A stretch of 39,087 nucleotides of DNA from an uncultured Gemmiger sp. (GTDB lineage Bacteria > Bacillota > Clostridia > Oscillospirales > Ruminococcaceae): assembly GCA_944382835.1 (NCBI GenBank), contig CALWNP010000023.1, positions 1 to 39,087 on the forward strand. The letters run 5' to 3'. Below are positions 6,992 through 26,262 of the stretch, piece by piece. The stretch's first letter is position 1. Every line of letters starts with the position of its first letter. Under the pieces are notes generated by a model. The model searched no databases and was not told the origin of the DNA. It saw only the letters and a list, made by a program, of their open reading frames with translations. The position numbers were made by a program, and so were the translations under genes.

Positions 6992-8044
6992 TCAGTCGGC
7001 GGCGTCGATGAAACCGCCGCCCATCACAAAGCCGCCGCGGTAGAACACCGCACTCTGGCCGGGGGCGGGGGCCCGCACCGGCTCGGGGAAGGTGGCGGTA
7101 TCGGTGCCGTCAAAGTGGCAGGGGACCGCCTTGGCCGCGGAACGGATCTTGACCCGGTAGTCCCCGGCGGGCAGCGGCTTGCCGTCGGGGGTGACGATGC
7201 CGGTCAGACGGATGCTGTTGTTGTACTCCTGCCCGGACTCGGCCAGCTGGATGTCCCCGTTGGACAGGATGGCCTTGACAAAGAGGGGGCGCCCCGCCGC
7301 GATGCCCAGCCCCTTGCGCTGGCCCACTGTGAAGTGATCCACCCCGGCATGGGGGCCCAGATCCTCACCGTCGGGGCCGATGAAGCGGCCGGTGAGAGGC
7401 TTGCCGCCCCGGGCCCGGATGTAGCCGGTGTAGTCTCCGTCGGGGATGAAGCAGATCTCCATGGAATCGGGGGCGTCGGCACAGGCCAGCTCCATATCCC
7501 GGGCAATCTCCCGCACATCCTCCTTCTCGAACTCGCCCAAAGGCAGCACCAGCCGGGACAGAATCTCCTGGGGCAGACGGTAGAGCATATAGGTCTGGTC
7601 CCGGGGCAGGCTTTCGGCCAGGCTCAGCCGGCAGATGCCGTCGGGGCAGAGGCTGACCCGGGCATAGTGGCCGGTGGCGATGTAGCGGAAGCCCAGCTCG
7701 TCGGCCTTCTGGGCCAGCAGCCGGAACTTCACCGCCGGGTTGCAGAGGATGCAGGGGTTGGGGGTGCGCCCGGCACAGTACCCGCTGCAGAAGGGCTCCA
7801 CCACCTCCTCCTCAAAGGCCTGGGCGGCGTCGATGACATGCAGGCGAATCAGCAGCTTGTCGGCGGTTTCCTGGGCCTGGGCCACCGCCTTTTCGTGGGC
7901 GGCGGAAAAGCGGATCACCGCCCCCTCCACATAAAAGCCCTGCTCCTGCAGGATGCGGACGGTGACGCTGGAATCCACGCCGCCGCTCATGCCCACCAGA
8001 ACCTTGTCCTGGGTTTCAAATGTGTTAAATCCAAGGCTGTCCAT
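6992..8044 (-). CDS. mnmA: tRNA 2-thiouridine(34) synthase
   Basis: A 350-residue enzyme that puts sulfur on the wobble uridine of Lys, Glu and Gln tRNAs. The PP-loop GMSGGVDSS ends at residue 26; the nucleophile Cys101 lies in NPCILCNPAVKF and the persulfide Cys198 in EICFI. DQTYMLY, TGHYARV and VGQRKGLGI are also characteristic. The region after the PP-loop is short and carries additional Cys (FCSGYC). ATG 8044 follows GGAG. It is the second gene of a minus-strand operon, 18 bases after rnhA. The sulfur donor is normally a cysteine desulfurase, which is not in the window. Confidence 0.92.
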   Translation of the reverse strand: MDSLGFNTFETQDKVLVGMSGGVDSSVTVRILQEQGFYVEGAVIRFSAAHEKAVAQAQETADKLLIRLHVIDAAQAFEEEVVEPFCSGYCAGRTPNPCILCNPAVKFRLLAQKADELGFRYIATGHYARVSLCPDGICRLSLAESLPRDQTYMLYRLPQEILSRLVLPLGEFEKEDVREIARDMELACADAPDSMEICFIPDGDYTGYIRARGGKPLTGRFIGPDGEDLGPHAGVDHFTVGQRKGLGIAAGRPLFVKAILSNGDIQLAESGQEYNNSIRLTGIVTPDGKPLPAGDYRVKIRSAAKAVPCHFDGTDTATFPEPVRAPAPGQSAVFYRGGFVMGGGFIDAAD

Positions 8045-8062
8045 CGTTGTATACTCCTTTTG

Positions 8063-8524
8063 TCAGGCCTGGCGGCCGCCGTATTTCTTGCTCTGTTCCA
8101 CCGCCAGCCGGTCACAGCGCTCGTTTTCGGGGTGCCCGGCATGGCCCTTGAGCCAGTGGTAGTGGATGACGTGCTTTTCGCTCTCCTCCAGAAGAGGGGC
8201 CCACAGATCGGGGTTGAGAGCGGGGGATTTATCGGCTTTTTTCCAGCCCCGTTTGCGCCATCCCTTGGCCCAGCCCTTTTCCAGCCCGTTGATCACATAC
8301 TGGCTGTCGCTGTACAGGTCGATGTCGCAGGGCTCTTTGAGCTGGCGCAGTGCCTGCAAAAGGCCGGTCAGCTCCATGCGGTTGTTGGTGGTGGACGCCT
8401 CACCCCCCGAGATCTCCTTCTCAAAGACCTTTTCGGCGGTGCGGAACCGCAGGATGGCTCCCCAGCCTCCCGGGCCGGGATTGCCGCTGCAGGCGCCGTC
8501 GGTGTAAATTTCAATATGCTTCAT
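8063..8524 (-). CDS. rnhA: ribonuclease HI
   Basis: A 153-residue RNase HI that cuts the RNA strand of RNA-DNA hybrids such as R-loops and Okazaki primers. The four acidic residues are visible: Asp in [17 protein letters not shown], Glu in NNRMEL, Asp in LYSDSQYV and Asp in NERCDRLA, with the flexible-loop His in [11 protein letters not shown]. The basic handle [15 protein letters not shown] typical of the E. coli-type enzyme is present. It is first in the rnhA-mnmA operon with a promoter ~55 bases upstream. Confidence 0.95.
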
Positions 8525-8578
8525 GGTTTGTCTGTTATCCCTTCATAGATCTGACAATACTGATGATAGTTAATTTGT

Positions 8579-8607
8579 ATTATACCTGTTTTGCAGGGCG
8601 CTGGCAA
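8579..8607 (-). promoter_or_regulatory. promoter of rnhA-mnmA
   Basis: On the minus strand TTGCCA (8607-8602) and TATAAT (8584-8579) are 17 bases apart. The -10 lies in ACAGGTATAATACA, a 14-mer also found at the GntR operon promoter (20260-20273). Confidence 0.75.
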
Positions 8608-8652
8608 CCGGTGTTTTGGCGGTCGAAGCGCCACGGCATCGACGGTTTGAAT

Positions 8653-8681
8653 TTGACAATGCAAAAGTTGGGATTTATAAT
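8653..8681 (+). promoter_or_regulatory. perfect consensus promoter upstream of rnjA
   Basis: TTGACA (8653-8658) and TATAAT (8676-8681) are 17 bases apart with AT-rich flanks, a perfect vegetative promoter. It is divergent from the rnhA promoter and is the likely start of the rnjA housekeeping operon. Confidence 0.85.
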
Positions 8682-8687
8682 AATATC

Positions 8688-8996
8688 AACTGCAATGTCG
8701 TGTTTTCGATCATGGCGGATCAAGGCGCTGCGCGGTGCCGGCAGGACACGGAGTTTCTGTATGCCGGCTTTTCGCTGAATTCCCGGCCCGGCTGCCGGGG
8801 TTACAGCCGCCCTTTGATCCGAAACCGGGCCCGGCCGCGCCTGTTCAGGCGGACTTTTCGCGCCCAACTTTTCCCGGCCCCTGTGATGGCTGATCCAAAC
8901 GGGTAAGACCTGTTGCGAAATACATACAAAGCAAATTCAGGTGCAAGGTACGGAGCGTGCCGCGTGTGCACGCTTCAGCTTTGCCGAAATTTTGAT
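8688..8996 (+). other. long structured 5' leader before rnjA, no recognised RNA family
   Basis: The 482 bases between rnhA and rnjA hold two divergent promoters and then ~310 bases without a convincing gene. Inside, CGGATCAAGGCG (8715-8726) can pair with CGCCctTTGATCCG (8811-8824, two-base bulge), enclosing GCCGGCA/TGCCGGC and CCCGGC/GCCGGG hairpins, which would form a three-way junction. I checked for 6S RNA, RNase P, tmRNA, SRP RNA and common riboswitch cores and recognised none. Short open frames here have no good start or family features. Confidence 0.45.
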
Positions 8997-9006
8997 GGAG
9001 GACAGA

Positions 9007-11010
9007 ATGGAAGATTTCAACAACCAGAACACACCCAAACGCCCGGCCCAGAAACGGCAGCGCCAGCAAGGCGATAACCAGCAAAGCGGCACCCAGAATG
9101 CCAAACCCCGTGCCCCCCGCCGCCGCGCTCCCCGTGCCCAGAATGCCCAGGGCGGCCAGAACACCGCAGCTCCGGCCGAAAAGGCAGCCCCCGCCAAAAC
9201 CGCCCGTGCCCCCCGCCGCCAGGGCCAGAACCGCCGTGCCGCCGAGGGCCAGGCCCCGGCTGCCCGTGCCCCCCGCACCCAGGCGCCCCGCGGCAATGGC
9301 CGCCAGAGCCAGCGCCGGCATCCCTCCTATGATGCCAGCAGCCCCGCCATCCCCATGCACATCTGCCCGCTGGGCGGCCTGGGCGAGGTGGGCAAGAACA
9401 TCACCCTCTACGAGTGCCAGGGGGATATGATCCTCATCGACTGCGGCCTGGTCTTCCCCGATTCCGAGATGTTCGGCATTGACCTGGTCATCCCCGACTT
9501 CACCTATGTGCTGGAGAACAAGGACCGGATCAAGGGGCTGTTCATCACCCACGGCCACGAGGACCATATCGGCGCCCTGCCGTATCTCTTGAAAAAATTC
9601 AATGTGCCGATCTATGCCGCCAAGCTGACCATCGGCCTGATCAAAAACAAACTGGAAGAGCACGGCTTGGCCTCCAGCGCCATCTTCCACGAAATCCGTC
9701 CCCGCCAGAAGGTCCGGCTTGGCTGCTTCACGGTGGAACCCATCCATGTGAACCACTCCATCCCCGACGCTCTGGCCTATGCCATCGAGTGCCCGGCGGG
9801 CATCGTCATCCACACCGGCGACTTCAAGATTGACTACACCCCGCTGTCCGGCGATGCGGTCACCGACCTGTCCACCATTGCCGAGTACGGCCGCCGTGGT
9901 GTGCTGGCTCTGCTGGCGGATTCCACCAACGCCGAGCGCCCCGGCTTTACCGCCACCGAGCAGACGGTGGCCGAAGGGGTGCGGGGGCTGTTTGCCCGGG
10001 CCCGCAAGAAGCGGATCATTGTGGCCACCTTTGCCTCCAACATCTACCGCATCCAGCAGATCATCGATCTGGCCATCGAGAGCGGACGCAAGGTGGCGGT
10101 CAATGGCCGCAGCATGGTCTCCAACACCGAGATGGCCCGGGAACTGGGCTACCTCCATGCCCCGGACAACGTCCTCATCGACATTGAGGAGGTCAACAAG
10201 TACCCGCCGGAAAAGGTGGTGCTGATCACCACCGGCAGCCAGGGCGAGCCGCTCTCGGCCCTCTCCCGGATGGCCCAGGCCAGCCACCGCACCGTCAAGG
10301 TGGGACCCAATGATTTCATCATCATCTCGGCCCGGCCCATCCCCGGCAACGAAAAGACGGTCACCAAGGTGGTCAACGGCCTGCTGGCCCTGGGCGCCGA
10401 GGTCATCTACGAGAATATGTACGACACCCATGTGTCGGGCCATGCCTGCCAGGAGGAGCAGAAGCTGATGCTCACCCTGGCCCATCCCCAGTATTTCCTG
10501 CCGGTGCACGGCGAGTTCAAGCAGCTCAAGCGCCACGCCGAAACCGCCAAGCACCTGGGCTATATCCCGGCACAGAACATCTATATCGCCGAAAACGGCC
10601 AGAACCTGCGGCTGTCGGTGGATTCCCTGACGCTGGAGAGCACCGTCCCGGCCGGGGCCGTCATGGTGGACGGCTACGGCGTGGGCGACGTGGGCAATGT
10701 GGTGTTGCGGGACCGCCATCACCTGTCGGAGGACGGCATCATCATCGTTACCGTGGTGGTGGACAACCGCACCGGCAAGGTGGTCTCCGGGCCCGACCTG
10801 GTCTCCCGCGGCTTTGTCTATGTGCGGGAGAGCGAGGAGCTGATGGACGGCGCCAAGACCCAGGTGGAGATGGCCCTGGACCGCAGCCTGTCCGACAATC
10901 TTCACGATTGGGCCAGCGTCAAGAGCCGGGTGCGGGAGGCTTTGTCCAGCTATATCTATCGCAAGACCAAGCGCAGCCCCATGATCCTGCCGATCCTGAT
11001 GGAAGTCTAA
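9007..11010 (+). CDS. rnj: ribonuclease J with a long basic N-terminal extension
   Basis: A 667-residue metallo-beta-lactamase/beta-CASP RNase, the main 5'-3' exonuclease and endonuclease of mRNA decay in Firmicutes. The catalytic core starts near residue 117 (MHICPLGGLGEVGKN); HGHEDH at 182-187 binds the metals; HTGDFKID, ADSTNAERPGFT, FASNIYRIQQ and VHGEFKQL follow, and the protein ends with the usual MILPILMEV. Unusually, residues ~1-115 are a low-complexity stretch rich in Arg, Ala, Pro and Gln, much longer than in B. subtilis RNase J1. GGAGG lies five bases before the ATG at 9007. It heads the housekeeping operon. J1 or J2 type cannot be assigned. Confidence 0.93.
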   Translation: MEDFNNQNTPKRPAQKRQRQQGDNQQSGTQNAKPRAPRRRAPRAQNAQGGQNTAAPAEKAAPAKTARAPRRQGQNRRAAEGQAPAARAPRTQAPRGNGRQSQRRHPSYDASSPAIPMHICPLGGLGEVGKNITLYECQGDMILIDCGLVFPDSEMFGIDLVIPDFTYVLENKDRIKGLFITHGHEDHIGALPYLLKKFNVPIYAAKLTIGLIKNKLEEHGLASSAIFHEIRPRQKVRLGCFTVEPIHVNHSIPDALAYAIECPAGIVIHTGDFKIDYTPLSGDAVTDLSTIAEYGRRGVLALLADSTNAERPGFTATEQTVAEGVRGLFARARKKRIIVATFASNIYRIQQIIDLAIESGRKVAVNGRSMVSNTEMARELGYLHAPDNVLIDIEEVNKYPPEKVVLITTGSQGEPLSALSRMAQASHRTVKVGPNDFIIISARPIPGNEKTVTKVVNGLLALGAEVIYENMYDTHVSGHACQEEQKLMLTLAHPQYFLPVHGEFKQLKRHAETAKHLGYIPAQNIYIAENGQNLRLSVDSLTLESTVPAGAVMVDGYGVGDVGNVVLRDRHHLSEDGIIIVTVVVDNRTGKVVSGPDLVSRGFVYVRESEELMDGAKTQVEMALDRSLSDNLHDWASVKSRVREALSSYIYRKTKRSPMILPILMEV

Positions 11011-11060
11011 CAGTCTGACGGCGTTTCGGCGGCTTCGGCCAGCCGGGAAGTGAGGAAGTT

Positions 11061-13070
11061 ATGAAGCGACAAGGCGGTTTTGACATCGCAGTGGTGATCT
11101 TTCTGTTGGCGCTGGCCTGCCTGGCGCTGGCGGTGCCGGTGGCCATCATGGCACCCATCTGGCTGGCGGCACCGGCGCTGCTGGTGGTCATGGCCCTCAT
11201 CCTCATTCTGCTGTTCCGCCGCCGTCTGCGCGCCACCATCTACAACAATCTCTGCGGCGTCACCTTCCAGGGCAGCAAGCTCCAGGCCACCCTGGCCGAG
11301 CTGCCGCTGCCGGTGCTGCTGGTCTCGGGCAAGAGCATCCTGTGGTACAACGCTCTGTTCAAGGAAAAACTGCTGGACGGCGCCGATGCGGTGCTGGGCT
11401 CCACCGACCGGGTGCTGCCCGGGCTGGACCTGTCGGTCTGCACCCGTCCCCACGGGCAGGACCTCACCGCCTGCGGCATCCGGTTTACCGCCTATGCCAG
11501 CCCGGCCAAAGGGGAACGAGGGGCCAGCATCGTCTACCTGGTGGACGATACCTTCTATAAGGACACCCTGGACGAGTACGCCGCCAGCCGCCCCGTCTAC
11601 CTCTTCATCGAGATTGACAGCTACGACGAGCTTTTCAACGATATGAAGGACTCGGAGCAGGCCCACGAGCTGGAAACCATCAACCGCCTGTTGGAAGCCT
11701 ACATCGACCGCACCACCGGCTTTCTGCGCCGGGTGTCCAACAGCCGCTTCATCGCGGTGGTGGAGGAGCGGGATGTCCAGTGGATGATCCAGGAAAAATT
11801 CAGCATTCTGGACCAGGTACGGGCGCTGCACCAGAGCGGGATGCTCACCCTCTCCATCGGGGTGGGCCACGGCGGCAAGACACTGCATGAATGCCAGGAG
11901 ATGGCCCGGGAGAGCATCGAGATCGCCCTGGGCCGTGGCGGCGACCAGGCCGCGGTCAAGACAGCCGACGGCTTTGAGTTTTACGGCGGCATCTCCCATG
12001 GGGTGGAAAAGCGCAGTCATGTGCGCTGCCGCATTCTGGCCAACGCTCTGGCCGACCTGATCCGCAACAGCGACAGCGTCATCATCATGGGTCACCGCCA
12101 GAGCGATCTGGATGCCATCGGCTCGGCCATCGGCGTGCTGCGCATCTGCAAGATGTGCGATGTGCCGGCGGTCATTGCGGTACATACCGACACCACCCTG
12201 GCAGGTCCGCTGATCGAGACCTTCCTGCAGGCGGGGGAGAGCCACAACTTTATCGAGCCGGATGAGACATTGGATCTCATCACCCCCCAGACCCTGCTCA
12301 TCGTGGTGGATACCTACCAGAAAAACCTGCTGGAAAGCCAGCAGATCTACGAAAAATGCCAGCGGGTGGTGGTCATTGACCATCACCGGATGGCGGTGGG
12401 CCACATCGACAACGCCCAGCTGCTCTACCACGAGCCCTACGCCTCCAGCACCAGCGAGCTGGTCTGTGAGATGCTGCAGTTCATGCCCACCGAGGGCAAC
12501 ATCACCCCGCTGGAGGCCCAGGCCCTGCTGGCCGGCATCATGCTGGACACCCAGAGCTTTGCCCTCCATGTGGGGGTGCGCACCTTTGAGGCTGCCGCCT
12601 GGCTGCGCAGCCGCGGCGCCCAGACCACCGAGACCAAGGTCCTGTTCAACATCTCCAAGGAGGAGTACGAGGCCCGGGCCGCCATCGTGGAGAGCGCCTA
12701 CATCTACAAGGGCTGTGCCATCGCGGTTTCGGACGAGCTGGACCCCGGCATGGCGGTGGTGCTGCCCATGGCGGCCAACGACCTGCTGACCATCACCGGG
12801 GTGGACGCCGGCTTTGTGGCGGTGGTCAAGAACGGCGGGGTCAACATCTCGGCCCGCAGCATGGGGGCCCTCAACGTCCAGGTGATTCTGGAACCGCTGG
12901 GGGGCGGCGGCCATTTGACCATGGCCGGTGCCCAGCTGAAAAACTGCACCAAGGAGGAGGCCGAGCGCCGCATCAAGGAGCAGATTGACGCCTACCGCGC
13001 TGCCCAGAGCGCCAACCGCACCCCCATCCGCAAACAACGCAAACCCGAGCTGCCGGACAAACGCCGCTGA
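11061..13070 (+). CDS. gdpP: cyclic-di-AMP phosphodiesterase, GdpP-like (DHH/DHHA1)
   Basis: A 669-residue membrane protein with GdpP architecture: two N-terminal membrane helices (about residues 8-52), a PAS-like segment, a degenerate GGDEF domain (~170-300), a DHH domain with GHRQSDLDAIGSAIG from ~344 and VIDHHR near 440, and DHHA1 with GGGGHLTMAGA near 614. GdpP hydrolyses c-di-AMP and so affects potassium balance, osmotic control and beta-lactam tolerance. The GGDEF site lacks a good GGDEF motif, as is usual for GdpP. ATG 11061 follows GGGAAGTGAGGAAG. The order gdpP-rplI-dnaB is conserved in many Firmicutes and supports the call. Confidence 0.92.
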   Translation: MKRQGGFDIAVVIFLLALACLALAVPVAIMAPIWLAAPALLVVMALILILLFRRRLRATIYNNLCGVTFQGSKLQATLAELPLPVLLVSGKSILWYNALFKEKLLDGADAVLGSTDRVLPGLDLSVCTRPHGQDLTACGIRFTAYASPAKGERGASIVYLVDDTFYKDTLDEYAASRPVYLFIEIDSYDELFNDMKDSEQAHELETINRLLEAYIDRTTGFLRRVSNSRFIAVVEERDVQWMIQEKFSILDQVRALHQSGMLTLSIGVGHGGKTLHECQEMARESIEIALGRGGDQAAVKTADGFEFYGGISHGVEKRSHVRCRILANALADLIRNSDSVIIMGHRQSDLDAIGSAIGVLRICKMCDVPAVIAVHTDTTLAGPLIETFLQAGESHNFIEPDETLDLITPQTLLIVVDTYQKNLLESQQIYEKCQRVVVIDHHRMAVGHIDNAQLLYHEPYASSTSELVCEMLQFMPTEGNITPLEAQALLAGIMLDTQSFALHVGVRTFEAAAWLRSRGAQTTETKVLFNISKEEYEARAAIVESAYIYKGCAIAVSDELDPGMAVVLPMAANDLLTITGVDAGFVAVVKNGGVNISARSMGALNVQVILEPLGGGGHLTMAGAQLKNCTKEEAERRIKEQIDAYRAAQSANRTPIRKQRKPELPDKRR

Positions 13071-17004: not shown

Positions 17005-19065
17005 TTGCAGCACAAACCACGTTTCAGCGGCGTGATCGTCGCCGCAGTCCTTTTGGTGCTGGCGTTGGTGGTCACCACAACGGTGGCCTCCATGTCGGGC
17101 AGCTCCGGCAGCACCATGAAACTGTCCGAGGTCATGGGCTATTTCGAGGCCAACCAGGTGACCTACTTCAACCTGGACCTGAACACCGGCGTCATTGACC
17201 TCAGTCTCAAGGAGGGCAAGTATCCGCTGCCCGAAAATGCCCAGCAGCAGGCCAGCACTGCCAACAGCGCCGCCGGCGCCAGCGGCGGACTCCTGGCCGA
17301 GCTGGCCGGTTCGGAGAATTACGGTCCCCAGAACGGCGGGGTGGTGGAGGTCACCTACAAGCTGCCCTACACCGCCTACTTCCTGGAATACCTCAACGGC
17401 TATATCCAGCAGTACAACGAGGCCAACCCCGACGCCCCCATGCAGTATGACATGGTGGAGATCAAAAGCAGCATTCCCTGGGTGGAGATCGTCTTCTACC
17501 TGATCATGATCGCCAGCGTGGCCATGCTGTTCATGTCGATGTACCGCGGCGGCGCGGGCGGCGGCATCATGAATGTGGGCCGCGCCAAGGTCAAGGATCA
17601 GCAGGAGGGCCAGCGCAAGGCCACCTTTGCCGATGTGGCCGGCGCCGACGAGGAGAAAGAGGAACTCAAGGAAGTTGTGGAGTTCCTCAAGGCCCCCAAC
17701 AAGTTCAACAGCCTGGGCGCCCGGATTCCCCACGGTGTTCTGCTGGTGGGCCCTCCGGGTACCGGTAAAACCCTGCTGGCCCGCGCCTGTGCCGGTGAGG
17801 CGGGGGTGCCCTTCTACGCCATTTCCGGTTCGGATTTCGTCGAGATGTACGTCGGCGTGGGCGCCTCCCGTGTGCGTGACCTCTTTGAAAAGGCCAAAAA
17901 GACCATGCCCTCCATCATCTTCATCGATGAGATTGATGCGGTGGGCCGCCAGCGCGGTGCCGGTCTGGGCGGCGGTCACGACGAGCGGGAACAGACCCTG
18001 AACCAGTTGCTGGTGGAGATGGACGGCTTCGACGCCAACGACGGCGTCATTGTCATGGCTGCCACCAACCGTGCCGACATTCTGGACAAGGCGCTGCTGC
18101 GCCCCGGCCGGTTTGACCGCCAGGTCTATGTGGGCCTGCCCGACGTGAAGGGCCGCGAGGAGATCCTCAAGGTCCATACCAAGAACAAACCCCTGGGCCC
18201 CGACGTGAGCCTCAAGACCATCGCCAAGTCCACCGCCGGTTTCTCCGGCGCCGACCTGGAAAACCTGGTCAACGAGGCTGCCCTGCTGGCTGCCCGCAAG
18301 GGCAAGAAGGCCATCACCGAGCCTGAGATCGAGGAAGCCTCCATCAAGGTGGTGGCTGGCCCCGAAAAGAAGAGCCGTGTGGTCACCGAAAAGGAAAAGC
18401 GGCTGACCGCCTACCACGAAACCGGCCATGCCATCACCGGCTACTTCTGCAAGACCCATGATCCGGTGCATCAGATCAGCATTATCCCGCGCGGTGCGGC
18501 GGGCGGGTATACCATGTATCTGCCGGAGAAAGATCCCAGCTATGTGACCAAGACCGCCATGAGCGAGAGCATTGTCAGCCTGCTGGGCGGCCGTGTGGCC
18601 GAACAGCTGGTGCTGGATGATATCTCCACCGGCGCTTCCAACGACCTGCAGCGGGCCACCGATACCGCCCGCGCCATGGTCACCCGCTACGGCTTCTCGG
18701 AGCGGCTGGGCCCGGTGGTCTACGGCACCGACCCCGGCGAGACCTTCCTGGGCCGTGACTTCGGCCAGGGCAAGGGCTACTCCGAGACGGTGGCTGCCGA
18801 GATCGACAGCGAGATCCGCGACATCGTGGAGGAAGGATACGAGACGGCCCGCCGTATCCTCAGCGAGCATATGGCCGAACTGCATAAGGTGGCTGCGGTC
18901 CTGATGGAGCGCGAAAAGATCTCTGGCGAAGAGTTCGAAACCCTCATGAAGGGCGGAACCCTCTCACCCTTTGACCTCAACGACAAAACGCCCACGGCAA
19001 CCCCTGCGGCACAGCCGGATCAGGTTCCCACCGATGGCATGACTGACAAAGAGCAAGGTGAATGA
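17005..19065 (+). CDS. ftsH: ATP-dependent membrane zinc metalloprotease FtsH
   Basis: A 686-residue AAA+ protease of the cytoplasmic membrane that removes misassembled membrane proteins and short-lived regulators. An N-terminal membrane helix (residues ~8-30), an extracytoplasmic domain of ~130 residues with a Gln/Ala/Ser/Gly-rich insert (about 78-105), a second helix (~163-180), Walker A GPPGTGKT (249-256), Walker [11 protein letters not shown], the second region of homology ending RPGRFDRQ and the zinc site HETGH (471-475) are all visible. The start is a TTG at 17005 with AGGAG at the right distance; the first ATG in frame would cut off the membrane helix. Confidence 0.96.
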
Positions 19066-19066
19066 G

Positions 19067-20149
19067 ATGGATCAGAATTTTTCCCTGATGGCACAATCCC
19101 GCGCCAACTATTACACTGCCGGCAGCCCGGTGCAGTTCGTCCGTGTCGAGCTGCTCAAGGGGGATGTCACCGGTGAGGTGGCCGTCTGCCTGACCTTCAA
19201 GAATGTGGGCACCGAGCCGCTGACCGGCCTGGTGATTCACTTCAAGTGCAAGGATGCCGCCGGCCAGGTCCTCTGCGAGGACGACTTCTACTACGAGCAG
19301 CTGGACGCCCAGCCCGGCGACTTGTTCGGCAGTGATGACGCGGTGTTTGTCAGCGATACCCCGGTCTCCAGCGTGGAGATCGAGCAGGACCGTGCCTTCC
19401 TCAATGGCCATGGGGTGGACCTGCGGGGCTACAAGCGGGTGCGGCTGCAAAACCCCCGCGTGCTGCCCGGCTCCATCGCCAAGACCCTGCAGGCCCGCAC
19501 CGGCAACAGCCAGTTGGTCTGTGTCCCCCAGGACACCGAGTATGGCTGGTTCTGCGCCTGCGGCGCCTTCCATCCCAATGAGGAAGCGGCCCAGGTCTGC
19601 AGCGAGTGCGGGGGAGACCGCGCCTACATCAAGGCCGCGCTGACCACCATCCTGGAAGAAGCCCGCCGCGCTGCCGAGGAGCAGCAGCGGGAGATCAACG
19701 CCGTCAGCAACCATGTGGCGGCACCTGCCCAACCCGAACCCCAGCAGCCCGACCAACCGGACCCGGCTGCCACCGCGGCTGCCGCCCAGGCCGCCATCAA
19801 CGAGCAGGAGGGCGGCACCACCGCCCAGTTTGCTCCGCCGGTTGCCGATGAGCCCACCAACGCCGAGATGGCCCGGGTGCAACGCTATGCCCCCAACGGC
19901 CGCCTCTTTGAGGATGACCCCGAGGAGGAGGACGACGAGGTGGACGGCACCCGGATGTACGACACCGACGAGGTGGACGGCGACTATGACGAGGAGGAAG
20001 AGCCTCGCGGCCGGTATGTCGATGACGAGGAGGAGAGTGAGGACGATGTGATGGCCGAGCGGATCATCCATTGGGCCCCGCCCATCACCGCCATCATCTG
20101 CGCGCTGATCATTGCGGTTACCCTGATCTATTACTTTGTGCTGGCCTGA
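19067..20149 (+). CDS. zinc-ribbon, tail-anchored membrane protein of unknown function
   Basis: A 360-residue protein I cannot assign to a named family. From the N-terminus: a beta-rich domain (~1-155, with VEVAV- and LVIHFKCK-like strands); a zinc ribbon with Cys163-x-Cys165 and Cys178-x2-Cys181; a short charged helix; a Pro/Gln/Ala-rich linker (~210-250); a very acidic stretch (~275-330); and one C-terminal membrane helix ending LIYYFVLA. There is no signal peptide, so it should be a cytoplasmic protein anchored by its tail. ATG 19067 is preferred over GTG 19058 because AAGGTG lies upstream; it begins one base after the ftsH stop, so it is very probably co-translated with ftsH. A link to FtsH function is inference from position only. 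Confidence 0.75.
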   Translation: MDQNFSLMAQSRANYYTAGSPVQFVRVELLKGDVTGEVAVCLTFKNVGTEPLTGLVIHFKCKDAAGQVLCEDDFYYEQLDAQPGDLFGSDDAVFVSDTPVSSVEIEQDRAFLNGHGVDLRGYKRVRLQNPRVLPGSIAKTLQARTGNSQLVCVPQDTEYGWFCACGAFHPNEEAAQVCSECGGDRAYIKAALTTILEEARRAAEEQQREINAVSNHVAAPAQPEPQQPDQPDPAATAAAAQAAINEQEGGTTAQFAPPVADEPTNAEMARVQRYAPNGRLFEDDPEEEDDEVDGTRMYDTDEVDGDYDEEEEPRGRYVDDEEESEDDVMAERIIHWAPPITAIICALIIAVTLIYYFVLA

Positions 20150-20204: not shown

Positions 20205-20241
20205 GCACAAAAACTGTTACATCTTTTGGACAAAAGAACAC

Positions 20242-20272
20242 TTGCTTTTCAGGCGTATTACAGGTATAATAC
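20242..20272 (+). promoter_or_regulatory. promoter and candidate operator of the GntR-ABC operon
   Basis: TTGCTT (20242-20247) and TATAAT (20265-20270) are 17 bases apart. GTATTA (20255-20260) and TAATAC (20267-20272) form an inverted repeat with a 6-base spacer across the -10, a fitting place for autorepression by the GntR protein encoded just downstream. Confidence 0.65.
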
Positions 20273-20337
20273 AGCTAAACCAAGAGGCGTATGAACGCCA
20301 TAGCACACACCCGTACCTTGGAAGGGGGGAGAACACC

Positions 20338-20715
20338 ATGGTCAGTTTTGCCGGGCTGCGGTTTGACGACCGCACGCCGGTCTATCAGCAGATTGCCGAA
20401 CACCTCAAACGGCAGATCCTTCTGGGCACCGTCCAGGATGGGGAGCCGATGCCCAGCCGCCGGGAACTGGCAGCTCAGACTGGCATCAATCCCAACACCG
20501 CTCAAAAGGCTTATCGCCTGATGGCCGAGGAGGGATATGTCCGCACCGACGGCAACAACGGCAGCACAGTCTGCCTGACGCCGGCGCTGCGCACCGCCAT
20601 CGAGGAGGAGCTCACCCGCGGGCTGGTGGAGCAATTTGTCCGGGACGCCCGGGCCAACCGGTTGTCCTACAAAAAGGTCATCAGCCTGATCAGTGAGCTG
20701 TGGGGCGAGGAATGA
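20338..20715 (+). CDS. GntR family transcriptional regulator, YtrA-like
   Basis: A 125-residue regulator with an N-terminal GntR winged helix (PVYQQIAEHLKRQILLG at 14-30, MPSRRELAAQTGINPNTAQKAYRLMAEEG at 38-66 with the recognition helix at its end) and a short ~45-residue helical tail with no large ligand domain. That size and tail are typical of the YtrA subfamily, whose members usually repress adjacent ABC transporter operons. GGGGGGAG precedes the ATG. It is the first gene of a seven-gene operon; the palindrome over the -10 is the likely operator. The effector is unknown. Confidence 0.88.
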   Translation: MVSFAGLRFDDRTPVYQQIAEHLKRQILLGTVQDGEPMPSRRELAAQTGINPNTAQKAYRLMAEEGYVRTDGNNGSTVCLTPALRTAIEEELTRGLVEQFVRDARANRLSYKKVISLISELWGEE

Positions 20716-20765
20716 TTTTTCTTTGCCCACAGTGTACTAACCAAATCATACAGGGAGGAACCTCT

Positions 20766-21539
20766 ATGAAATCGATGCTTCCCTTGACGGGATGGAATTT
20801 CTATATGGTCCGCCGCCCGCTGGGAACGGTGCTGGCAGTGATGCTGCTGGCCGAAACGGCGCTGGCGCTGTTCTGTGCCACCCGGCCGGCCCTGTGCACC
20901 CTCGGCCAAAGTGCCCTTTACGGCAATCTGGGCGGACCGTTGCTCTTTCTGGCGGCCTACCTGGGGGCCCTCTGGGCCAGCCTGCGCCCTCTGGCTATGA
21001 CCGGGGGCCGCAGCCGGGCGGGGTGCACCTTGCTCACCCTGCCCATGCCCCGCTGGCAGATTCTGCTGGCCCAGGTCCTGTCCAGCGTGCTGTCACTGGC
21101 AGCGGTCATCGCCTGTCAGCTGCTCTGGATGGTGGTGATCTACTGGCCCACCACCGCCATCCAGGCTGCGGTGGCCAACGCCCACAACCTGGGCGATCTG
21201 GTGGAACAGCGCTCGCTGTGGTGGGAGCTGGCCGCCAACCCCATTTTCAACCTGCTGCTGCCCTGGCAGGGCGGGGCGGTCTGGCGGCTGCCGCTTTTCC
21301 TGCTGGCGCCTGCTCTCATCGCCCCGGGAGTTTTGCTGCAGCGTGGCAAGGCACGGTTCGGGGCGGTCTGCCTGACGGTGGCGGGGGCGCTGCTCTGCCT
21401 GGCCCTGGCCGCCGTCTATGCCGCCAAACAGGGATATGACAGCGGGGATCTCTGGATGGCGGGGGCGGTCTGCCTGCTCTGCCTGATCTCCTGGTTCTGG
21501 TCGCTGCGCGCACTGCGCCGGGCCGTACCCATCCAATAA
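20766..21539 (+). CDS. ABC transporter permease-like membrane protein, copy 1
   Basis: A 257-residue protein with about six membrane helices. It resembles ABC-2 type permeases in size and topology but I recognise no named family. It is a clear paralogue of the gene at 23020: shared features are a start of MK-x-L-x-W-x3-MVRR, a cytoplasmic GR(S/A)RAG-x-TLLTLP loop, NP(I/L)F(N/H)LLLP after the third or fourth helix and a C-terminal LRALRRA. The conserved basic loop is a plausible contact with the ATPase encoded at 25231. ATG 20766 follows AGGGAGGAAC; the next gene starts 13 bases after the stop. Confidence 0.75.
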   Translation: MKSMLPLTGWNFYMVRRPLGTVLAVMLLAETALALFCATRPALCTLGQSALYGNLGGPLLFLAAYLGALWASLRPLAMTGGRSRAGCTLLTLPMPRWQILLAQVLSSVLSLAAVIACQLLWMVVIYWPTTAIQAAVANAHNLGDLVEQRSLWWELAANPIFNLLLPWQGGAVWRLPLFLLAPALIAPGVLLQRGKARFGAVCLTVAGALLCLALAAVYAAKQGYDSGDLWMAGAVCLLCLISWFWSLRALRRAVPIQ

Positions 21540-21552
21540 GGAGGGATCACCG

Positions 21553-23001
21553 ATGAAACAGAACTTTTGCCACCCCGGCCGGCTGACGCTGGGAGCGCTG
21601 GCCGTCTGTCTGGCGGTGGTGCTGGCCCTGGCCCTGACAATGCGGCTGTGCTGGCCGCGGGATGCCTTTTCCCTCACCGATCTGGAAGGGGACACCGCCG
21701 CCCTGGAAGGCTTTGCCCTGGGCGGCGGGCTGGAAATCGACACCAATGGCCACCAGCTGGGCGTCCGGTTCACCATGCAGGACGGTCAGCTGACCAACAC
21801 CCTGACCACCGGCCGCAGCAGTGCCCTCCAAAACGCCTGGATCGGTTTTTCCACCGCACTGCCTGCGGCACAGCGGGAGGCGCTGGACGCCCAGGCAGCC
21901 GAGGGAAAATACAGCGAGTGGAACAGCGCCTTGATGGGTCTGGCCCAGACCAGCAGCTCGGGCATCCAGCGCAGCGTCTCCACCGACCAGGTGGAGATCA
22001 TGCTCACGGTGGATTATGATGCTCCCGACGGTGTGGTCCGCAGCGTGCGGTTCCCCTGCGGGCAGCTCACCCTGAGCCAGCCCCTCACCTTTGCAGCCGA
22101 GATTGGTTACCGCGATGGGGAACCCTATGTGCGGCAGGATTACACCGCCAACGCCAGCGAACAGTGGAACGAGATTTCCCAGACCTGGGAAAGCCGGACC
22201 GCAGTCTTGGCGGATGGAGCGGTGGTGGCGCTGAATAACACCGGCGATGTGCCGGGCACCCAAAGCGGTCTGTACCTGGTGGGGGACGGGCTAACCCAGT
22301 CGGAAATTCTCGCCCTGCCCGCCGATGCCACAGTGGGGGATTGCCCGGTGCAGTCCAGAACCCTGGCCTACGGCACGGTCCATCCGGTCTGGACCATGCC
22401 CCAGGGAGGCAAGCTGGTGGACCTGGTGACCACCGGAGATTCCATCGCCCTCTTTTATCTGGATGACAGCGGCTGCCATCTGCTGACCATGGATCAGCAG
22501 GGGGGCAACCAGCAGATTCTGGACCTGACCGATGCCCTGCCCGACGGAAACTTCCGCGGGTTGGAAACCCTCCGCCCTGATGAGGTGGCCTGCGCCACCG
22601 AAGAGGCGCAGCCGGACGGCGGCCGGGTGGACCGGGTGCAGGTGTTCCGGCTGGCGGCGGGAAGGATCACTGCCCAGGGCAGCTGCCTGCCCGATCAGAT
22701 TCCCACCTATGACACCGCCGTGGCCATGAGCGAGGACGGCAGCCGGCTGCTGACGGTTTCCTCAGTCAGTGACCTGGTAGATCTGCCGGATTCCTCGGGG
22801 GGACAGCTGATCTGGAAAAAAGGCTGTACCCTGGAAGTCTGGCAGCAGGGGACCGGCACCGCCCTGTGCACCGCACAGCTGAAATCCCAGCGGAATGTGG
22901 CCAAGGGCTGGTCCTATGGCCGTTGGAATGAGCTCTGGCCCATGGGTCGGCTGCTGACCCGGGATCTGAGCCTGACGCTGGATGGCATCAACACCTTCTG
23001 A
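21553..23001 (+). CDS. membrane-anchored extracytoplasmic protein, copy 1
   Basis: A 482-residue protein of no recognised family with one N-terminal membrane helix (about residues 11-33) and no lipobox or obvious cleavage site, leaving a ~445-residue domain outside the cell. It is a paralogue of the gene at 23816: both begin the exported part with L-x-D-x-x-GD-x-x-AL-x-GF and share a block of the form G-x-Y-x-x-x-DGLTQ-x-E-x-x-A-x-PA. The C-terminal half has repeating beta patterns such as EDGSRLLTVSS and LEVWQQGTG that recall beta-propeller blades; this is an impression, not a demonstrated fold. It is encoded between the two permease copies. RBS AGGAGGG. Confidence 0.7.
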   Translation: MKQNFCHPGRLTLGALAVCLAVVLALALTMRLCWPRDAFSLTDLEGDTAALEGFALGGGLEIDTNGHQLGVRFTMQDGQLTNTLTTGRSSALQNAWIGFSTALPAAQREALDAQAAEGKYSEWNSALMGLAQTSSSGIQRSVSTDQVEIMLTVDYDAPDGVVRSVRFPCGQLTLSQPLTFAAEIGYRDGEPYVRQDYTANASEQWNEISQTWESRTAVLADGAVVALNNTGDVPGTQSGLYLVGDGLTQSEILALPADATVGDCPVQSRTLAYGTVHPVWTMPQGGKLVDLVTTGDSIALFYLDDSGCHLLTMDQQGGNQQILDLTDALPDGNFRGLETLRPDEVACATEEAQPDGGRVDRVQVFRLAAGRITAQGSCLPDQIPTYDTAVAMSEDGSRLLTVSSVSDLVDLPDSSGGQLIWKKGCTLEVWQQGTGTALCTAQLKSQRNVAKGWSYGRWNELWPMGRLLTRDLSLTLDGINTF

Positions 23002-23019
23002 GGAAAGGGAGGCAACCCA

Positions 23020-23802
23020 ATGAAACCGATCCTGAATCTTGCAGCCTGGGGCTGGGCGATGGTACGCCGCTCCTATGGGCTGCTCTGTGCCCTGTTTGCC
23101 GCCCAGCAGCTGGTCATCCTGCTGCTGTTGGCGGCCCGGCGGAGCAACGTGGGCGGGTGGTACACCTGGTACTATCTCCATGGCATGCAGGCCCCGCTGC
23201 TGGTGGTGGCCTGGCTGGCCGCCGGTGTCCTGTCGGCCCGGATACTCTGGCAGGCCAACGGTCGGGCCAGGGCGGGCTACACCCTGCTCACCCTGCCCCA
23301 GTCCCGCGGCTCGTTGCTGGCAGCGCAGGTCCTGCTCTGCGGCGGCATGCAGCTGGGGATCCTGGCCTGGCAGCTGGTGCTATACGCCCTGTTCCGCTGG
23401 CCGGTGATGGCGGTGGCCAACCGGGTGGCGGCCGGGGCACTGTCCCAGCCCATACATCCTTCTTCCCTCTATGAACAGCTCTTCATCAATCCGCTCTTCC
23501 ACCTGCTGCTGCCCGCCCGGCCGGTGGCGGCCCTCTGGCTGTGGGGCTGGTGGCTGGCTTCGGCGGTGGTGCTGCCCTGCATCTTTGTGCACAGGGTGGC
23601 GGGACGGCTGGTCCAGGGGATTCTGGCCGCTGTGGTCCTGGTTCTGGGTGGGGCCCAGAATCTGATGGAATACTACCGCTGGCAGGGCAGCCTGGACCCC
23701 GTCCGCGGCCAGATGCTGATTTTGCCGGCCCTGGTGCTGGTGCTCACCGGCGTCAGCCTGGCCTGGGCCCTGCGGGCGCTGCGGCGCGCGGAATTTGTCT
23801 GA
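23020..23802 (+). CDS. ABC transporter permease-like membrane protein, copy 2
   Basis: A 260-residue protein with about six membrane helices, paralogous to the protein at 20766 (see the shared MVRR start, GRARAG-YTLLTLP loop, NPLFHLLLP and C-terminal LRALRRA). Divergence outside those blocks is large, so the duplication is not recent. Together the two could form a heterodimeric channel for the single ATPase encoded downstream. It starts 18 bases after the preceding stop with GGAAAGGGAGG as binding site and is followed 13 bases later by its own exported partner. Confidence 0.75.
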   Translation: MKPILNLAAWGWAMVRRSYGLLCALFAAQQLVILLLLAARRSNVGGWYTWYYLHGMQAPLLVVAWLAAGVLSARILWQANGRARAGYTLLTLPQSRGSLLAAQVLLCGGMQLGILAWQLVLYALFRWPVMAVANRVAAGALSQPIHPSSLYEQLFINPLFHLLLPARPVAALWLWGWWLASAVVLPCIFVHRVAGRLVQGILAAVVLVLGGAQNLMEYYRWQGSLDPVRGQMLILPALVLVLTGVSLAWALRALRRAEFV

Positions 23803-23815
23803 GGAGGTGGCCGCA

Positions 23816-25231
23816 ATGAAGAAAAGCAACCCCATCCGGGGTCTGGCCCTGTTGCTGGTCCTGGCCCTGGCGGTGTATCTGGCGGCAATGACCTGGCAGT
23901 GGCTGGGCCGGAGCGGCTGGAAGGTAACCTTGCAGGATGTGAACGGCGATGCCGGTGCCCTGCGGGGGTTCGTGGTCTCGGGCCGGGTGGACAACGCCTA
24001 CACCGCCGTGGACTTTGTGCTGCGGGACGGCTATCTGGAAACCCATGCCCGGCCGGACGGCGCCACGCCCCCCGAAAACCCCGCCTGGTACAGCAGCTTT
24101 GTGGAAGTGCCGGCCCCCGAGGACCGGGCCACCCTGGAAGCGGCTGCCTCCGTCCAGGAAACTACCTGGGGAACCGATTATGAGAGCCAGGCGGAACATT
24201 TCTGGCAGATGCAGGAGCTTCGGCTGGCCGACGGCACCGCCGTCCGGGTCAAGACGGGGGAGTACACCCGCCCCGATTCCCTGGTCACCGCCCGGAAGAA
24301 CCCCGACGGCACCACCTATGATTGGAGCCGCAACTACCGCGAGGGTGAGATGTCCGAGATGCCGGTGCGGTTCGGCGGAGTGCTGGAGAACGCCGGCAGC
24401 CAATGCCTGGTCATTGCCGACGGCAACGAGCTCTGGCCCGCCGGGGTCTACAAGGCGACGGATGGCCTGACCCAGGAGGAGGTGGATGCCTTTCCCGCCA
24501 ACGGCACCCTGATGGGGGACCCGGTGGTGCTGAGCACCACCCAGTTCGGCACCCTGGAGCCGCTGTACTGCCCGCCGGACGGGGTACAGTGCTACCAGTG
24601 CCTGCCCATGACCGGCCAGACCATGCTGCTGCTCTACCGCAACACCCAGAACCAGCTGCTGGCGGTGCTGCTGGACCAGACCGGCAAACAGCTGGACCAG
24701 CGTCTGCTCATGCAGTGTGAGGACGGCGGCGAGGAAGCCCCGGTGTATGTCTATTTTCTGGGCCGGGAAACCCAGAGTGAGGCCGCCTTCTTCTACCAGG
24801 CGGGCCAACAGGCCGACGGCAGCGTCAGCGGCGTCACGGTGGCGGCATTGCGCACCGATGGGGTCAGCTTCACCGCCTTCCAGCAGGTGGAAGGGGTACG
24901 CAGTGATCCGCGGTTGGACAACTGTTTCTACGCCGCCCTCAACCGGGCGGGGGACGGGATGATCCTCTTCTCCAACCGGGTGGAAAGCCTGACCAGCACC
25001 GCCCAGGGCTTCTCCTCCGAGGAACGCTACACCGACGGCGCCTGGGTGGCGGTCTATGACCAGGGAAATCCCGACCCGGTCTACCTGGGCTGGCTGGACA
25101 GCGGGGAAGGCCGGACCGTGGGCGGACAGCTGCTTTCGGGCGGATTTTCGGTGCTGGGGCTGGGGCCCTACAACGATTGGTACATCGACATTGATTTTCC
25201 CACCCTGGATTGTGACAAGGGGGTTCTGTGA
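23816..25231 (+). CDS. membrane-anchored extracytoplasmic protein, copy 2
   Basis: A 471-residue paralogue of the protein at 21553, with an N-terminal membrane helix (about residues 8-27), no lipobox, and a large exported domain starting LQDVNGDAGALRGF. The central block AGVYKATDGLTQEEVDAFPA aligns with its partner. The second half is rich in short beta-strands and Gly-Asp turns that could form propeller blades. I recognise no enzyme motif. ATG 23816 is chosen because GAGGAGG lies upstream at a normal distance. Its stop overlaps the ATPase start by one base, so the two are translationally coupled, which supports a role as a transporter subunit or sensor. Confidence 0.7.
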   Translation: MKKSNPIRGLALLLVLALAVYLAAMTWQWLGRSGWKVTLQDVNGDAGALRGFVVSGRVDNAYTAVDFVLRDGYLETHARPDGATPPENPAWYSSFVEVPAPEDRATLEAAASVQETTWGTDYESQAEHFWQMQELRLADGTAVRVKTGEYTRPDSLVTARKNPDGTTYDWSRNYREGEMSEMPVRFGGVLENAGSQCLVIADGNELWPAGVYKATDGLTQEEVDAFPANGTLMGDPVVLSTTQFGTLEPLYCPPDGVQCYQCLPMTGQTMLLLYRNTQNQLLAVLLDQTGKQLDQRLLMQCEDGGEEAPVYVYFLGRETQSEAAFFYQAGQQADGSVSGVTVAALRTDGVSFTAFQQVEGVRSDPRLDNCFYAALNRAGDGMILFSNRVESLTSTAQGFSSEERYTDGAWVAVYDQGNPDPVYLGWLDSGEGRTVGGQLLSGGFSVLGLGPYNDWYIDIDFPTLDCDKGVL

Positions 25232-25974
25232 TGATTGAAGTAAAAGGCTTGCGCAAAGTGTATCGAAAGCACCACCGGGAGGTGGGGCTGCTGGGGGCGG
25301 ATTTCGCCATCCCCGACGGCCAGATCGTGGGCATTTTGGGGGAGAATGGCGCCGGCAAGACCACCCTGCTGCGGGCCATGGCCGGGCTGCTGCCGGCCCA
25401 GGCCGGCCAAGCTCTCTTTGACCAGAAGCCCGCCGCCGCCCAGTATGAGCGGATCAGCTACATCACCGGGGAAGGCAGCTACTTTCCCTGCCTGACAGTG
25501 GGGGAGTACGGCCAGTTCCTGGACCAGATGCACCCGGCCTTTGACCCTGCCCGCTACCGGGAGTTTCTCGCCTTCTTTGCCCTGGACCCGGCCGACCGCA
25601 TCGACCGGCTGTCCACCGGCCAGCGGGCCCGGGTGGAGCTGGCCGCCGGCTTTGCCAAGCGGGTGGACTATTATCTGATGGATGAGCCCTTCCTGGGCAA
25701 GGATGCCTTCACCCGCAAGGACTTCATCAAGCTGATGAGTGGCACCCTCCACGGGCAGGAAACCATCCTCCTCTCCACCCATTATCTGGACGATGTGGAG
25801 CATTTTCTGGACCGGGCCATCATCCTGCACCAGGGCCGGGTGGCCGAGGACGTGATGATGGACTCTTTGCACGAGACCGGCGAAACCCTGCTGGACCGGA
25901 TGAGCAAGGCCTGCGGCTGGGACCCCGGCCACTATCTGACCTTTGAGGATGACGAGGGGGCGGACCGGACATGA
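25231..25974 (+). CDS. ABC transporter ATP-binding protein (YtrB-like)
   Basis: A 247-residue ABC ATPase with Walker A GENGAGKT (37-44), signature LSTGQ (127-131), Walker B YLMDEP (ending 153) and the switch His184 in STHYLDD. The segment where a Q-loop is expected (YITGEGSYFPCLTV) has no Gln, and the D-loop is LGKD, both seen in the YtrB/EcsA-type branch that pairs with ABC-2 style permeases. It is the only ATPase for the two permease copies upstream, so a homodimer under a permease heterodimer is the simplest model. The start ATG overlaps the previous stop; the end overlaps the winged-helix gene by 4 bp. Confidence 0.9.
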   Translation: MIEVKGLRKVYRKHHREVGLLGADFAIPDGQIVGILGENGAGKTTLLRAMAGLLPAQAGQALFDQKPAAAQYERISYITGEGSYFPCLTVGEYGQFLDQMHPAFDPARYREFLAFFALDPADRIDRLSTGQRARVELAAGFAKRVDYYLMDEPFLGKDAFTRKDFIKLMSGTLHGQETILLSTHYLDDVEHFLDRAIILHQGRVAEDVMMDSLHETGETLLDRMSKACGWDPGHYLTFEDDEGADRT

Positions 25975-26207
25975 CGCGGGACGGCTTTACTCCGCAGGAG
26001 TGGGCGCTGCTCCAGCTGCTGCGGCGCAACCGGGGCAAGGTGATGCCCCGGGGCATCCTGCTGTCCCAGGCCTGGGGGTATCCCGCCGACGCCGCCACCC
26101 GCACCCTGGATGTGCACATCCAGCGGCTGCGCAAAAAGCTGGCCCGGCAGGGACAGAAGGAACAGATCCAGACCATTTTCCGGGTGGGATACCGCCTGGC
26201 GGGATGA
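25971..26207 (+). CDS. stand-alone OmpR/PhoB-type winged-helix DNA-binding protein
   Basis: At 78 residues this is just the effector domain of an OmpR-family response regulator: LTPQEWALLQLL-like first helices, the transactivation loop region, the recognition helix around RTLDVHIQRLRKKL (44-57) and the wing IQTIFRVGYRL (66-76). The usual ~120-residue receiver is missing, and the sequence upstream codes for the ATPase in another frame, so it is not a frameshifted regulator. Its ATG overlaps the ATPase stop (ATGA), meaning tight coupling. It may bind the operon promoter or a distant target; no histidine kinase is nearby. It closes the seven-gene operon. Confidence 0.85.
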   Translation: MTRDGFTPQEWALLQLLRRNRGKVMPRGILLSQAWGYPADAATRTLDVHIQRLRKKLARQGQKEQIQTIFRVGYRLAG

Positions 26208-26212
26208 TGCAA

Positions 26213-26262
26213 AAGGAGCCCGGCGCCTGCCGTAATGGCGGTGCGCCGGGCTCCTTCTTTGC
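26213..26262. terminator. bidirectional terminator after the GntR-ABC operon
   Basis: AAGGAGCCCGGCGC (26213-26226) pairs with GCGCCGGGCTCCTT (26243-26256), with an inner CTGCC/GGCGG stem. TCTTT follows on the plus strand. Confidence 0.8.

Follow-up and report, generated by a model that had tools for sequence, protein, structure and literature searches.

What kind of machine is encoded by an operon that combines a single ATP-binding cassette (ABC) ATPase with two different permeases and two different exported proteins? The question is raised by a 39,087-nucleotide stretch of DNA from an uncultured Gemmiger sp. (contig CALWNP010000023.1; the whole stretch is called the window below), in which seven co-directional genes occupy positions 20338-26207 of the + strand. 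The first-pass annotation of this DNA had described a GntR-controlled ABC operon with a duplicated module of permease plus exported protein, and its coordinates, its gene order and its gaps of no more than 50 bases were borne out on re-reading. The locus that it picked out is real and well conserved, although the operator of the repressor, a putative activator box and the wide four-gene family to which the operon belongs were missing from it. The genes for the repressor, the ATPase, a permease and an exported protein make up a conserved set of four that extends from Paenibacillus and Bacillus to Clostridia, and the permease and the exported protein of this set evolve fast and in step. About an even chance is given to the reading of the operon as an ABC-2/NosFY-like envelope machine, which would act through outer beta-propellers and be governed by the repressor and by a recruited, receiver-less activator.

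Relatives were found by alignment of the repressor, the best 80 loci of 142 were retained, and gene order was determined by chaining profile matches from the repressor (loci and genomes are cited by L and G numbers, G000 being the window's genome). The order repressor-ATPase-permease-exported protein was found in 43 of the 80 loci (Paenibacillus, Bacillus, Peribacillus and kin), repressor-permease-exported protein-ATPase in 15, and the same order with two exported proteins between permease and ATPase in eight; one permease with three exported proteins occurred in a single Anaerotignum locus (L069), and two permeases, two exported proteins and a winged helix in five. The remaining eight comprise L081 (repressor-permease-ATPase-exported protein), L048 and L056, which are cut by contig ends, L066 and L092, which are broken, and L099, L107 and L108, in which the profile chain lacks the permease or the exported protein. 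Overall, one permease with one exported protein is present in 58 of the 80 loci. The genes are kept together in the relatives, as had been anticipated, but one exported protein per permease does not hold as a rule, because one permease may be accompanied by one, two or three. Decay of the locus was also observed. The operon of L092 (Clostridia bacterium UC5.1-1D10, 8001-12979) looks degraded, with the permease and exported-protein genes in pieces and the ATPase frame at full length, and of two Ruminiclostridium cellobioparum records compared at 8383-11382, L067 is complete and L066 contains permease pieces and an ATPase remnant and has no exported-protein match, as if internally deleted.

The closest named relatives were Gemmiger records, with repressors 74-86% identical to that of the window. 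Within this genus a repressor ortholog (at least 74% identity) was present in 18 of 35 genomes and the exported protein in the same 18, and no exported protein was found outside the genus among 120 genomes searched, the window's included. Iterated exported-protein profiles expanded 33 Gemmiger sequences to 95 matches, which lie inside the operon in the loci listed (L061-L125). When the exported-protein profile was applied to an even draw over the phylum, two of 398 genomes were matched, one of them the window's own; this was read as a sparse distribution, with the proviso that the first pass of the survey lets few candidates through and may miss divergent members. Initial peptide-pattern searches, for exported protein 1 in genome contigs and for permease 2 in viral contigs, returned no relative, probably because such patterns are too exact for fast-evolving genes.

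The pace of this evolution was apparent from comparisons within Gemmiger. Among the two-module genomes G010, G009 and G033, identities were 94-97% for FtsH, 94% for the repressor, 87-89% for the ATPase and 82-88% for the winged helix, and just 47-63% for permeases and exported proteins; among the closer one-permease genomes G001, G004 and G019 they were 94-97% for the repressor, 93-94% for the ATPase, 84-90% for the permease and 71-86% for the exported protein. Distances between permeases remained correlated with those between exported proteins after regression on ATPase and regulator (partial r 0.48 for 43 loci and 0.72 for 15 loci; Mantel p 0.001 in each single-module set), a comparison that excluded loci whose operon was incomplete or encoded several exported proteins. 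The correlated evolution supports, short of proof, a physical partnership of permease and exported protein. The earlier proposal that the anchored external partners belong to the system is upheld by this co-variation beyond ATPase and regulator and by the joint presence of the genes in relatives.

Permease 1 (20766-21539, 257 amino acids) and permease 2 (23020-23802, 260 amino acids) are 33% identical over nearly their whole length (E 4e-21), and exported protein 1 (21553-23001, 482 amino acids, with an N-terminal anchor) and exported protein 2 (23816-25231, 471 amino acids, starting with ATG at 23816) are 25% identical over about 283 alignment columns (E 2e-16). The sequence blocks previously noticed in each pair are therefore homologous and not due to chance, and the two modules align as had been claimed. 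Permease 1 and exported protein 1 were further matched by the family profiles A3 (E 3.5e-63) and A2 (E 7.3e-72), each of which includes the protein in question. Profile A2 was built from 76 of 89 exported proteins listed and profile A3 from 54 of 81 permeases, in both cases with the two proteins of the window, after exclusion of loci L092 and L066, minus-strand matches, exported proteins shorter than 300 amino acids and permeases shorter than 200.

Pfam names three of the seven proteins: GntR for the regulator, ABC_tran for the ATPase and Trans_reg_C for the small protein at the end of the operon. At E 1 it returned nothing for permease 2 or for either exported protein, and sub-threshold ABC-2 matches only for permease 1 (ABC2_membrane_2, 12.9 bits against a cut-off of 27.2). 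No NCBIfam family scored above its cut-off for the permeases or exported proteins, and ten permeases and exported proteins from other genera gave no Pfam family and one sub-threshold match, so that the exported proteins of the window and of its relatives match no described sequence family in these two collections, an outcome that the first-pass annotation had rightly expected. No system was called when the seven proteins were scanned with PADLOC, where the ATPase had 24 matches (best mad3, 77.5 bits), the regulator matched Csa3 (17.4 bits) and the other five had none; among the literature matches listed, none described this system of repressor, ATPase, permease and exported protein.

The AlphaFold permease model (pLDDT 92.3) has a predicted ABC-2-like fold, NosY-like in the case of permease 2, and its best structural match was NosY of NosDFY, followed by PmtCD and also by CcmABCD and ABCA4, the tool cautioning on helical matches. 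The model of exported protein 2 consists of one anchor helix (residues 6-33) followed by an all-beta, propeller-like domain, the structural matches of which were propellers. With the separate ATPase (25228-25974, 248 amino acids; PF00005, E 3.9e-22), the predicted permease fold would make the operon an ABC-2/NosFY-like transporter. The ABC-2-type system under a YtrA-type repressor that had been suggested earlier is thus supported, with a permease fold closest to that of NosFY, itself a system with an outside partner.

Phylogenetic trees resolved two lineages for both the exported proteins and the permeases. A supported clade (96/95) unites the exported proteins 1 of the two-module operons, the window included; their counterparts in one-permease operons, that of G029 excepted, cluster with exported proteins 2 at moderate support (81/76 and 88/88), and the permeases of nine of ten one-permease operons cluster with permease 2 (90/92). 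In operons with one permease and two partners, both exported proteins fall into two neighbouring groups within lineage 2, which indicates a separate duplication. The placement of permease 1 of the window was not supported, and the trees are also weak at the long branches, namely exported protein 2 of the window, L061 and L069_6921.

From these parts a mechanism may be sketched, in which we infer the composition of the complex, the passing of force or gating to the propellers, the ligand and the function. A homodimer of the single ATPase would drive a pair of permeases, and the two diverged paralogs would probably form a heterodimer; with two different partners and two different permeases in the window, the arrangement that suggests itself is a heterodimer carrying two outer domains, and the heteromeric complex proposed by the first-pass annotation is presumed on these grounds. 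Its alternative description as a mechanosensory machine found no support of its own. In NosDFY, ATP cycling moves the permeases and the motion acts on the outer partner. By analogy, the permeases of the window would relay ATP cycling to the two membrane-tethered extracytoplasmic propellers, which may bind something at or outside the membrane, a first guess being an amphipathic peptide or a lipid-linked wall precursor.

The repressor gene (20338-20715) encodes a protein of 125 amino acids with a GntR domain at residues 16-78 (PF00392, E 1.5e-13), which confirms the earlier assignment as does the ATPase match given above. Its solved relatives are Lin1836 (3neu, E 3.5e-19) and 6sbs (E 4e-12), which we take to be YtrASa, and it matches 3neu (125 amino acids) and 4r1h (128 amino acids) over near full length. 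Members of the YtrA subfamily have an N-terminal GntR winged helix and a short C-terminal part, about 120-130 amino acids in total, and by size and domain layout the repressor belongs to this subfamily of GntR regulators. The operon promoter, read from the sequence at 20242-20270 (-35 TTGCTT, 17 bp, -10 TATAAT), was not reported by the consensus promoter scan. Overlapping its -10 box is a putative operator palindrome, CGTATTACAGGTATAATACA (20254-20273), with one mismatch to TGTAYTA-N6-TARTACA. Over 81 upstream regions (the 80 loci and the window) this pattern was exact in 67 and had one mismatch in 12, two in one and five in one (L077); no more than two mismatches were thus found in 80 of 81 regions, compared with 0.31% of single-base shuffles, none of which had fewer than two. 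Longer inverted repeats extend from it in several relatives (e.g. L052, L067 and L073), and the 20-bp core corresponds to a YtrA-type operator, described in PMC6746942 as a long palindrome, typically of 24 bp, with distant half sites. A search form of the operator starting with GTR was discarded since it missed the window, which has GC there.

The exact form GTGTAYTA-N6-TAATACA occurred once per genome in eight of 11 Gemmiger genomes and was not found in G000, G027 and G033. As seven of these eight sites lie upstream of the repressor, the repressor probably controls its own operon, and the sites suggest that it would repress by covering the -10 box; only exact sites were counted, and further targets are possible. 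The eighth site (L039 of G015, about 3523-3543) is located after the repressor gene and ahead of that of permease 1, which suggests that the operon is controlled at an additional, internal point. Promoters of Bacilli (L078-L101) often have, by eye, a second palindrome, GTGTATGAAC...TAGTACATACAC, just 3' of the first operator.

The last gene of the operon (25971-26207) encodes a protein of 78 amino acids, in which PF00486 (Trans_reg_C) covers residues 6-76 (E 2.7e-22) and the only other Pfam match is a sub-threshold one to MarR_2. The small DNA-binding protein of the first-pass annotation can thus be specified as an OmpR/PhoB effector domain that lacks the receiver of such response regulators. 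As a gene following the ATPase, it was seen only in two-module Gemmiger operons, in seven of the eight; the operons of G007 and G023 are split over contigs, and the gene was not seen in G023. Its nearest listed relative in the window's genome is an OmpR/PhoB-type response regulator (G000:C2:88700-89467). This regulator, which has 59% identity with the 78-residue protein in its DNA-binding domain, is a possible source of the operon's winged helix.

Upstream of the window promoter lies the box TTACATCT (20217-20224), which was invariant in all eight two-module Gemmiger promoters (G000, G003, G007, G009, G010, G015, G023 and G033) and occurred in none of ten promoters of one-permease Gemmiger operons, all of which are without the winged-helix gene. 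The -35 hexamer is TTGACA in eight of the ten one-permease promoters (TTGACG and TTGCAT in the others) versus none of the eight two-module promoters, and the spacer of the L055 promoter is 18 by eye. The -35 of the two-module promoters is thus weakened, and the box sits upstream of it. The simplest reading of these sites is that the receiver-less, PhoB-type protein activates its own operon from TTACATCT, compensating for the weak -35. That the box is instead a relic of shared descent, or is read by another protein such as a related full-length response regulator, is plausible without being probable. All carriers of TTACATCT belong to one genus and one operon type, and the same genomes contain open frames of response-regulator length with DNA-binding domains 50-60% identical, one of which was read out in G000. 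The box occurs mostly as the 13-mer ATCTTTACATCTG, of which the window promoter keeps just 9 of 13 bases (compared by eye), and G000 has no copy of it. Against this alternative, the eight bases are invariant across eight promoters in which most neighbouring sequence varies, the distance from the start of the box to the -10 takes two values about one DNA turn apart (37-38 bases in three promoters and 47-48 in five), and ATCTTTACATCTG is present once per genome, at the operon promoter, in five of six genomes searched. The 10-mer TTTACATCTG is common (34 of 35 genomes) and is informative only as the longer box plus position. Activation by the winged helix has as its main confounder the shared descent of the two-module operons, so that the split in box and gene does not amount to 18 independent observations.

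The last two gene junctions overlap by 4 bases, and a probable terminator follows at 26215-26254, read by eye as a perfect 12-bp stem with a 16-nt loop and a TTCTTT tail, which fits the end of the operon after the winged-helix gene; it was absent from the output of a program scan, whose loop limit it exceeds. On the other side, the product of 19058-20149 has paired cysteines (zinc-ribbon-like, by eye), an acidic region and, at its C-terminus, a hydrophobic segment; its gene overlaps the end of ftsH and also adjoins ftsH in L037-L040 and L043.

The permeases and partners define an unnamed family, as no Pfam or NCBIfam model covers either in the proteins tested. Its ABC engine and the distinct partner outside evolve as a pair, so that the family can be used to test how ATP cycling is transferred to an outer protein; the arrangements with one, two or three partners provide natural variation for such work. 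With its repressor and putative captured activator, the promoter offers a clean example, open to testing, of how a fragment of a response regulator may turn into an independent activator along with its site. More broadly, and only tentatively, Bacillota may possess sparsely distributed ABC machines that drive tethered outer propellers without transport and whose outer halves were repeatedly duplicated and diversified, Gemmiger having captured a response-regulator effector as a private activator with its own box.

Among systems already described, NosDFY(L), an ABC system that delivers copper for nitrous oxide reductase, shares with the window operon an ABC-2-like permease fold (predicted for the latter), a separate ATPase and a separate extracytoplasmic partner. 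NosD has the fold of a right-handed beta-helix, whereas the modelled partner matches propellers, and the partners of the window are duplicated and carry their own anchor. NosD is found in complex with NosFY according to PMC13068155. No nos genes were noticed in the window operon, although no dedicated search for NosD or NosZ was made and the neighbours of the relatives were not searched.

PmtABCD, the phenol-soluble modulin exporter of Staphylococcus, has in common with the operon a GntR-type repressor, the closest curated ATPase model and a similar permease fold. A Pmt-like peptide exporter or immunity pump, with permeases exporting amphipathic peptides, a repressor sensing the peptide directly and propellers serving as receptors or exit guides, is nevertheless considered unlikely. 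Pmt has two ATPases and two permeases versus one ATPase here, the window ATPase reaches 102.7 bits with PmtA, its best NCBIfam model, and the scores lie far below the family cut-offs (350 for PmtA, 200 for PmtR). We know of no external propeller partner of Pmt. No gene for such a peptide was recognised within the operon, nearby small open reading frames not having been searched systematically. Release of the GntR repressor of Pmt by the exported substrate is reported in PMC5080381.

Bacillus subtilis YtrGABCDEF likewise has a YtrA-type repressor over an ABC operon with two permeases. According to PMC12772383, lipid II-cycle inhibitors elicit a response of ytr, and its expression stimulates wall synthesis. 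That the operon of the window encodes a YtrBCDEF-like system, induced by envelope stress and modulating wall synthesis or the lipid II cycle, is quite unlikely: ytr has two ATPases plus YtrF and, in the account consulted, no propeller partner, versus one ATPase and propeller-like partners here; no MacB/FtsX domain was found among the Pfam matches of the seven proteins; and a YtrA-type regulator by itself leaves function unfixed. That the outer parts change rapidly is in keeping with an external ligand that varies, and it is compatible with all three functional readings, the envelope machine acting through propellers, the peptide exporter and the wall-synthesis modulator.

The winged helix shares the Trans_reg_C domain with OmpR/PhoB-family response regulators and differs from them in its missing receiver and in the position of its gene inside an ABC operon. 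PMC13068155 describes beta-propeller lipoproteins that accompany two-component systems (LpqB-MtrAB and AOT13_14265). Like the propellers predicted for the window, these are extracytoplasmic accessories of a membrane system, the partner being a histidine kinase there and an ABC permease here.

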